Assembly: GCF_017881085.1 (NCBI RefSeq)
Contig: NZ_JADGRI010000007.1
Span: 1-39,482, forward strand
Reading direction: 5' to 3'
Length of the DNA: 39,482 nucleotides
From: Bradyrhizobium sp.
GTDB lineage: Bacteria > Pseudomonadota > Alphaproteobacteria > Rhizobiales > Xanthobacteraceae
Position 1 is the stretch's first letter; every line of letters starts with the position of its first letter. The position numbers were made by a program, and so were the translations under genes. The notes beneath the pieces were generated by a model, which had not been told where the DNA came from, searched no databases, and saw only the letters and a program-made list of their open reading frames with translations. Of this stretch, positions 1,002-38,768 are shown piece by piece.

Positions 1002-2231
1002 TCAATCCGTCATCGCCATCGCGCGCAGCGCCTGGCGCTCGCGCGCCGACATTTTCTCGGTCTCCGATTTCAACTGGCCGCAGGCGGCGAGGATGTCGCG
1101 GCCGCGCGGCGTGCGCACCGGCGAGGAGTAGCCGGCGTTGAAGATGTATTCGGAGAATCTTTCGATCTGCTCCCAGTCCGAACATTCGTAACGCGTGCCC
1201 GGCCACGGATTGAACGGAATGAGATTGATCTTGGCCGGAATGCCCTTGAGCAGCTTCACGAGCAGCTTGGCGTCATCGAGCGAATCGTTGACGCCCTTCA
1301 GCATCACATATTCGAAGGTGATGCGCCGCGCATTGGAGGAACCGGGATAATCGCGACACGCCTGCAGCAATTCGGCAATCGGATATTTCCGGTTCAACGG
1401 TACCAGCTCATTGCGCAATTCGTCGCGCACCGCGTGCAGCGAGATCGCCAGCATGACGCCGATTTCTTCTCCGGTGCGGATGATGTTGGGCACCACGCCC
1501 GAGGTCGACAGAGTGATGCGGCGGCGGGAAATGCCGATGCCCTCATTGTCGGAAACGATCAGGAGCGCATCGCGCACCGCGTCGAAATTGTACAGCGGCT
1601 CGCCCATGCCCATCATTACCACATTGGTGACGAGTCGGCCGCCGGTCGGCGTATCGCGGTCGGCCCAGTCGTTGAGGCGATCGCGCGCCACCATGATCTG
1701 GCCGACGATCTCGCCCGCGGTGAGGTTGCGCACCAGCCGCTGGGTGCCGGTATGGCAGAACGAGCAGCTCAGGGTGCAGCCGACCTGCGAGGAAACGCAC
1801 AGCGTGCCGCGATCGGTTTCCGGTATATAGACGCACTCGACTTCATGGGCCTTCTCGACCGAATCGCCGCTCGGCAGGCGCAACAGCCATTTGCGGGTGC
1901 CGTCGGCGGAGATCTGCTCGGCGACCACTTCGGGCCGTGCGACGGTGAAATGCGCTTCGAGTGTGCCGCGCATTTCCTTGGAGATGCTGGTCATCTCGTC
2001 GAAATTCGCAGCACCCCGGACATAGATCCAGTGCCACAACTGCTGTACGCGCATCTTGCGCTGCGCCGGCGCCACGCCGATCTCCCCCAGCCGTTCCGCG
2101 ATCTCGGCGCGCGACAGACCGACCAGCGAGGGCTTTGCCGGCGGCACATAGGTCTCGAGCGCGATCTTTTCCAAAGGCGCGCTGGCGCCGGAACCGGGTT
2201 CGATCGAAGCAGAGGTCATGGTTTCGTTCAT
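1002..2231 (-). CDS. rlmN: 23S rRNA (adenine(2503)-C(2))-methyltransferase RlmN (radical SAM)
   Basis: Radical SAM motif [44 protein letters not shown]. Confidence 0.97.
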
Positions 2232-37974: not shown

Positions 37975-38010
37975 AAAAGATAAAAGACCGGTTTGGCGGG
38001 AAAAGTCGTT

Positions 38011-38131
38011 GTCGTTCCTGCGAAAGCAGGAACCCATACGCCGTGACGCTGATTGTGAGAGGCGCTGTTCGACGGCTTTCGCGCCACAACGAACGCCTGT
38101 GGTTATGGGTCCCTGCTTTCGCAGGGACGAC
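38011..38131. repeat. Paired REP-type inverted repeat
   Basis: GTCGTTCCTGCGAAAGCAGGAACCCATA (38011-38038) versus TATGGGTCCCTGCTTTCGCAGGGACGAC (38104-38131): 26 of 28 complementary. Confidence 0.88.
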
Positions 38132-38189
38132 ACGGCGTGTGTGGCGCGTTCGTCGCGATTTAAGACACCGTCAGACATGCGTATAAATC

Positions 38190-38640
38190 CCGCGGCGCGA
38201 TGCGCCCGAGGCTTGCAAGAACCATCCGCCCAGAGGGCGTGGGGAATGCCGGGTGCCCAACGCACCCGCAGCCGCGCGTGTAGAAAAAAACACGCGCGTT
38301 AGTCACCACGGATACGCCGGAAACACCCGGCATTCCCGCACGCGGCTGGTTTTACGGCTTACTTCGTGATCTCCCCGGCGATCGGGCTTTTTTGTCACCG
38401 TCGCCGGCAGCGTCCTAGCTGCCGACTTGACGCCAGCGTCGAGGCGTCAGGACCACACGACTTCACCGTCCGCGTCAGCGCTGTTCGTCAATAGCGCATC
38501 CGCGTCCACCGCATCCCGCCCCAACGTTCGTGACGATGGCCAACGCCCCTCAACGGGACAGGACGGCGGGAGTTAAGAAGCTGATTTGCCTGAAATGCGA
38601 AGCGGAATATTTTTTCGAACGGGACTGGACAGATAGAAAC
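38190..38640. repeat. Multi-hairpin non-coding element, likely dispersed repeat or structured RNA
   Basis: GCGTGGGGAATGCCGGGTG / CACCCGGCATTCCCGCACGC; CGCGCGTGT-8-ACACGCGCG; CCCG-GCGAT-CGGGCTTTTTT; CGGCAGC-6-GCTGCCG; TGACGCC-8-GGCGTCA; no convincing CDS. Confidence 0.6.
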
Positions 38641-38682
38641 AGTCTGAACGCGCAGGACAAATTCGATTTTACGCGCAAAAGC

Positions 38683-38768
38683 TGGATTGCTTCGTCGCTG
38701 CGCTCCTCGCAATGACGGCGGGACGCATCGCCGGACACCGTCATTGCGAGCGCAGCGAAGCAATCCAC
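38683..38768. repeat. REP-type inverted repeat
   Basis: GGATTGCTTCGTCGCTGCGCTCCTCGCAATGACG versus CGTCATTGCGAGCGCAGCGAAGCAATCC. Confidence 0.85.

Follow-up and report, generated by a model that had tools for sequence, protein, structure and literature searches.

A candidate family of large structured RNAs dispersed between the genes of Bradyrhizobium and related genera

The window analysed here, a stretch of 39,482 nucleotides from a Bradyrhizobium draft genome, holds between uppS and a lipoprotein gene a tract crowded with inverted repeats, and the question that it raises is whether these hairpins belong to a functional RNA, to a mobile sequence or to palindromic DNA. The first-pass annotation had guessed at a structured RNA, which compensatory changes would support, or a long repeat that recurs between the genes of Bradyrhizobium-type genomes; BLAST and genome searches bore out the recurrence, and the covariation of consensus pairs bore out the structure. 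We propose, at a probability of roughly 0.6, that the tract belongs to a dispersed RNA gene family of ~470 nt, read from the minus strand, equipped with its own promoter in related genera and acting in trans with a partner. Comparison of the copies, at the level of sequence, shows a fold kept by compensatory change, copies that lie between genes only, constraint in place, spread and some decay.

The copy in the window occupies 38169-38640 on the minus strand, with its 5' side near 38640 and its 3' side near 38169. These boundaries were drawn from a profile match (38173-38639) set against the ortholog L079 and other copies, and the true ends are uncertain by some tens of bases; the tract is non-coding and multi-hairpin as first described, but the unit is larger than the hairpins then quoted. 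All its parts are given here on the minus strand. A conserved unpaired 5' block (38569-38632) comprises CTGTCCAG at 38625-38632, the A-rich AAAAAATATTCC at 38604-38615 and GCAAATCAGCTTCTTAACTCC at 38569-38589. The 5' arm of helix 2, GCGGTGG (38506-38512), pairs with 38342-38349 and closes a large multiloop. The most conserved core (38324-38467), matched by the covariance model R1 at 145.9 bits (E=4.6e-33), includes helix 7 (GACGC...GCGTC, 38429-38448, with the loop CTCGACGCTG at 38434-38443), the hypervariable hairpin of helix 8 (38403-38426), where both sides have changed in 7 of 9 pairs, and helix 9 (CGGTGA/TCGCCG, 38376-38400), which is 100% paired across copies and carries an A-run in its loop. 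Helix 10, formed by GTGCGGGAATGCC with GGCATTCCCCAC (38239-38341), encloses helices 11-12 and an inner hairpin at 38273-38298, and helix 13 (CTCGGGCG/CGCCGCGGG, 38189-38210) is the 3' terminal hairpin. The inverted repeats claimed at the outset are present in the window: the inner hairpin is paired at 9/9 positions (38273-38281 with 38290-38298), two compact hairpins lie at about 38403-38426 and 38429-38448, and the long outer pair is perfect over 14/14 positions (38242-38255 with 38324-38337), the 19 bp first attributed to it being reached only with mismatches. These repeats stand above chance, since the window copy is a member of a repeat family with covarying consensus pairs. Two further palindromic intergenic repeats lie on either side of the element, at 38010-38141 and 38683-38767 of the window, and the latter (TGGATTGCTTCG...CAATGACGG) is found again beside many element copies in other genomes.

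The fold was built on an alignment of 42 diverse copies, and its consensus comprises 76 pairs in 13 helices, 29 of the pairs showing double changes. Across this fold 96.9% of the cells are paired and 238 are double-changed, against 80.9 in shuffles, and none of 500 shuffles reaches any of the five measures; the shuffles ignore relatedness, so that these figures are not probabilities, the pair-count and pair-type measures being the robust ones. In slid controls the pairing drops to 38-50%, and covariation of the kind expected of a large structured RNA is therefore found above both the shuffled and the slid controls. The core yields 36 pairs when the kissing interaction is included, with 94.6% formed and double changes in 18/36, and neither its paired cells nor its covariation score is reached by any of 500 shuffles. 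A short kissing-loop pseudoknot between the helix 7 loop and the loop at 38382-38394 is supported by three predicted pairs, the first of which is C-G in 12 copies, U-A in 12 and G-U in 5. The strand is fixed by the wobble pairs: the predicted minus-strand fold contains 596 G.U against 98 A.C cells, and the plus-strand fold 267 against 247. This excess of G.U over A.C means that the structure is an RNA of the minus strand, opposite to the strand implied by the earlier reading of CCCGGCGATCGGG-CTTTTTT (38374-38391) as a terminator. That sequence is present, but on the minus strand its T-run (TTTTTT/TTTCTT) becomes the variable loop of helix 9. A plus-strand small RNA ending at CTTTTTT was rejected on the variability and loop position of the T-run together with the wobble bias, and a transcript end at 38391 is not implied by the minus-strand fold.

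Protein-coding sequence, ORF 38530-38715 included, was rejected on three results. Among 100 distinct copies there is no overlap with any gene predicted from codon usage, the variability across copies has no 3-periodicity, and the indels relative to the window copy are 89% out of frame (1353+313 out of frame, 210 in frame). The plus-strand ORFs had been taken for chance reading frames, a view that these results uphold, and the objection that an ORF such as 38530-38715 might be conserved falls with them, no conserved ORF having been found. Around the copies, no gene family recurs apart from the orthologous loci.

The window's own draft genome (5.36 Mb in 494 contigs) gave 43 matches to a BLAST of 38150-38720, mostly at 71-84% identity, and 41 to the core covariance model; the family can thus be put there at about 30-40 copies of a unit of ~470 bp. 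Many copies are cut by contig ends, so that the assembly breaks at the element repeat. The complete genome of a relative, G136, carries 17 strong and 4 weak copies, and within this one genome the core occurs in two length types, of about 140 and about 172 nt (L139, L145, L150, L223-L236). Multiple copies and strong covariation dispose of the objection that the tract might be single-copy and non-covarying. When 61 genomes were searched, 34 of them were matching congeners, the window's genome included, and most of the sampled congeners matched; among genomes of other families of the order, 1/24 matched, weakly. At the level of genera, matches occur in 17/47 of those sampled within the family, most of the tested ones at full length, with no convincing match in any sampled genus outside the family. 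Under stricter filters, the core model scored nothing outside the genus Bradyrhizobium in 199 genomes across the order, a listing in which just one genome represents another genus of the family; applied directly to other-genus copies, it matched 18/18, with E from 1e-5 to 1e-23. Phage records gave no match to the element, nor did a pattern search of viral contigs, and the sole match in the plasmid search was a partial fragment on a Bradyrhizobium plasmid; a phage or plasmid element was rejected on these grounds.

Constraint can be followed at a fixed locus between a ferredoxin oxidoreductase and a thiolase gene (names read from the predicted proteins), where the element is found in many congeners, including the window's genome, and is missing in others. 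In a tree of the copies at this locus, one orthologous clade takes in 19 and a second clade 10, the remainder grouping with copies from elsewhere; the split clades point to vertical inheritance within species groups and to independent insertion or replacement between them. Among the 19 orthologs the paired columns have a pairwise identity of 96.5% and the unpaired ones 84.9%; the former vary about five times less, and there are a few compensatory pairs. This comparison is biased towards conserved paired columns because the structure came from an alignment containing the 19 orthologs. The third codon positions of the neighbouring gene, with 86.2% identity, provide a yardstick independent of that bias; the first and second positions of this gene reach 98.6%. 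Since paired sites are more conserved than both unpaired sites and third codon positions, selection keeps the fold in place. Between the window copy and its ortholog in G025, identity is 84.6% over paired columns and 73.6% over unpaired ones; six pairs, mostly in helix 8, have changed on both sides and still pair. Several thiolase-upstream loci that do not carry the element (among L153-L222) hold another repeat, TTTGAAATCAA..CTACTGTGCATGGGGTTGTTTTCG...CTTGTGCCGTCGGGCAAAACACC; within the same species group, the end motif of this repeat is also seen at the element's 5' edge.

The way in which the element is expressed is suggested by copies from other genera, 14/15 of which carry, in a constant place immediately ahead of the first helix, a near-consensus sigma-70-type promoter (TTGACA or TTGACG, a spacer of 16-18 nt, and a box such as TATATT). 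The mean promoter score of these copies is 10.5 of 12, compared with 7.3 when shuffled, and its place would put the start of transcription at the AUCCCGCC...GGCGGGAU helix; the signature also occurs in Afipia birgiae and two MAGs. The element is on this account probably a stand-alone RNA gene, for which transcription is deduced from the promoter. Congener copies (n=70) score 7.3, equal to their shuffles at 7.3, and the window copy has no sigma-70 match; its 5' block lies at the position held by the promoter in other genera. Congener copies share instead an A-rich block and GCAAATCA...ATAAC, and no clear terminator was found in them. Their upstream gene is co-directional in a ratio of 45:11 (p=5e-6), against 3:5 in the genera with the promoter (Fisher p=0.019), and a simple scan places an intrinsic terminator between the upstream gene and the element in 5/57 cases. 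A simple reading is that copies without a sigma-70 promoter of their own may depend on upstream transcription. In Afipia clevelandensis (L317, ~1650-1710, minus strand) the same promoter and first helix occur with the remainder of the element unmatched, possibly a diverged or sister RNA. In other genera (L092, L093, L096, L097, L098, L106) a conserved GGCTGTTTGA(C/A)A..TGAATC tail stands tens of bases past the 3' hairpin, and similar TGTTTGA tails follow some copies of G000.

We propose that in the other genera the sigma-70 promoter of each copy drives its transcription, with a start at the first helix, and that in Bradyrhizobium-type genomes the other conserved 5' block would have replaced this promoter; copies there would be transcribed from that block, by read-through of the co-directional gene upstream, or by both routes. 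The RNA would act in trans and would most likely do so within an RNA-protein (or RNA-RNA) assembly, to which it contributes the RNA. Its strongly conserved unpaired or junction segments, near GUCGUGUGGUCC and GAGAGCACGAAGUAAGCCGUAAAACC, would form the working surface, and helix 8 would be a spacer kept only as a stem. The spread of copies would come from a copying process without visible duplication of the target. From conserved junctions, the promoter of the relatives, the lack of a common neighbour and the constraint in place, all of which it would fit, we infer trans action, probably with a protein partner.

The orientation bias of the congeners and the rarity of intervening terminators would also suit a cis-acting 3' UTR element, co-transcribed with the upstream gene and stabilising, processing or insulating its mRNA. 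We hold this to be improbable, as a 3' stabiliser would hardly need a conserved architecture of this length, the flanking genes are unrelated, and the copies of other genera have their own promoter and no orientation bias. It is far less probable still that the family is a repeat acting at the DNA level (a mosaic of REP/BIME type, a cruciform or a MITE) and devoid of RNA function: a high copy number, intergenic positions and frequent REP-like palindromes alongside are what such a repeat would display, but the asymmetry of G.U over A.C is expected of RNA and not of duplex DNA, and neither the covariation of a long-range multiloop and a kissing interaction nor the promoter of the relatives agrees with it.

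A further rival arises from mobility. G021 has copies at unrelated sites that match one another at 95-97% identity, and the recent ones, once aligned, have sharp edges (5' CTGTGTCG, 3' GTGTCT) with, by inspection, no inverted termini and no evident target duplication. Both ends occur together about 640 nt apart, bar one internally deleted copy of about 194 bp (C1:5853635-5853828, L278) in which the 5' and 3' ends are joined, and no larger ORF-bearing element with the same ends was found in that genome. At least 6 of the 16 listed G021 copies are at sites shared with G116, and a near relative keeps only a 5' remnant at one of the sites (porin). As read from these genomes, the near-identical burst and the remnants show mobility and loss, and the loss or decay of some copies implies that every individual copy is dispensable. 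At the uppS, thiolase and porin loci no exact, clean empty site with a target duplication was obtained, since these intergenic regions are full of other repeats and the porin site holds the remnant. An autonomous element or partner gene was found neither beside the copies nor in G021. Class C group II introns insert just after terminators; for the element such insertion was rejected on the 5/57 count given above. It may be asked whether the family is a purely selfish, non-autonomous mobile RNA element, its fold the substrate of an enzyme encoded elsewhere and its intergenic sites merely tolerated. The likeness of the G021 copies across different sites, the mini-copy, the scattering of locus copies over several tree clades and the dispersal with no partner gene are all in its favour. 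We nevertheless judge it unlikely. Dead copies should drift, but in 19 species at a fixed locus the paired sites stand far above both the unpaired sites and third codon positions; the missing terminal inverted repeats and target duplications, and the spacing of the ends (~640 nt) in G021, where no larger ORF-bearing element has them, also speak against it.

We thus retain the reading of a dispersed RNA gene family acting in trans. Tentatively, it can be extended to a mobile yet host-maintained 'ornate' RNA class of ~470 nt, multi-copy, with its own promoter in most genera and a kissing-loop and junction assembly (RNA-protein or RNA-only), which would spread by RNA copying and which selection would keep at its fixed chromosomal sites in the Bradyrhizobium family on account of a function in trans. 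Bradyrhizobium is intensively sequenced and agriculturally important, yet none of the RNA family libraries searched contains this ~470-nt RNA, which covaries strongly and is present in dozens of copies per genome. For studies of structure and function the element is a new large RNA, and it is also a rare case of a dispersed repeat demonstrably constrained in place, not debris, the paired sites at a fixed locus being slower to change than third codon positions; its promoter-bearing and promoter-less copies form a ready comparison.

The tract matches no known RNA family: a gathering-threshold scan of the window with Rfam 15 returned tRNAs only, and E-value scans of the region and 15 copies gave nothing credible on the element. 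A MITE was rejected on the missing terminal inverted repeats and target-site duplications of the recent G021 copies. HEARO, or the omega RNA of IscB-type elements, accompanies mobile DNA and frequently lacks the associated ORF, and the element resembles it as a structured RNA tied to mobility; it was rejected, there being no model match and no recurrent flanking nuclease, transposase or IscB/IsrB-type protein family. ORF-less group II introns are large mobile structured RNAs that leave no target duplication, and some insert downstream of genes; the element matches no Rfam group II model, no domain V was recognised and no adjoining gene recurs, and this class was also rejected. The Rhizobiales-1 motif, a candidate Rhizobiales RNA rated doubtful in a table and bearing no Rfam number there, may be the present family, as far as the table entry goes (PMC2864571). 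Br-REP1 and Br-REP2 are short palindromes of 20-40 nt, intergenic or in 3' UTRs of Bradyrhizobium and relatives, a setting that the element shares (PMC5082802), but its best copy mismatches Br-REP1 at 6/20 and Br-REP2 at 16/40 positions; the comparison concerns the palindromes alone, a 'larger repetitive element' around Br-REP2 being mentioned there as data not shown. Within the open-licence papers covered, the main text of a transcription-start study does not mention repeats (PMC4842269). Set beside OLE, ROOL and GOLLD, which are ornate large bacterial RNAs, the element differs in having no Rfam match, in being scattered through bacterial genomes at about 20-40 copies each and in being absent from phage records, GOLLD, and ROOL by comparison, being described as phage- or prophage-borne (PMC12286853). 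With these three RNAs it nevertheless shares an unclear function, a length of hundreds of nucleotides, a complex conserved fold, kissing loops and many conserved unpaired bases (PMC12286853).
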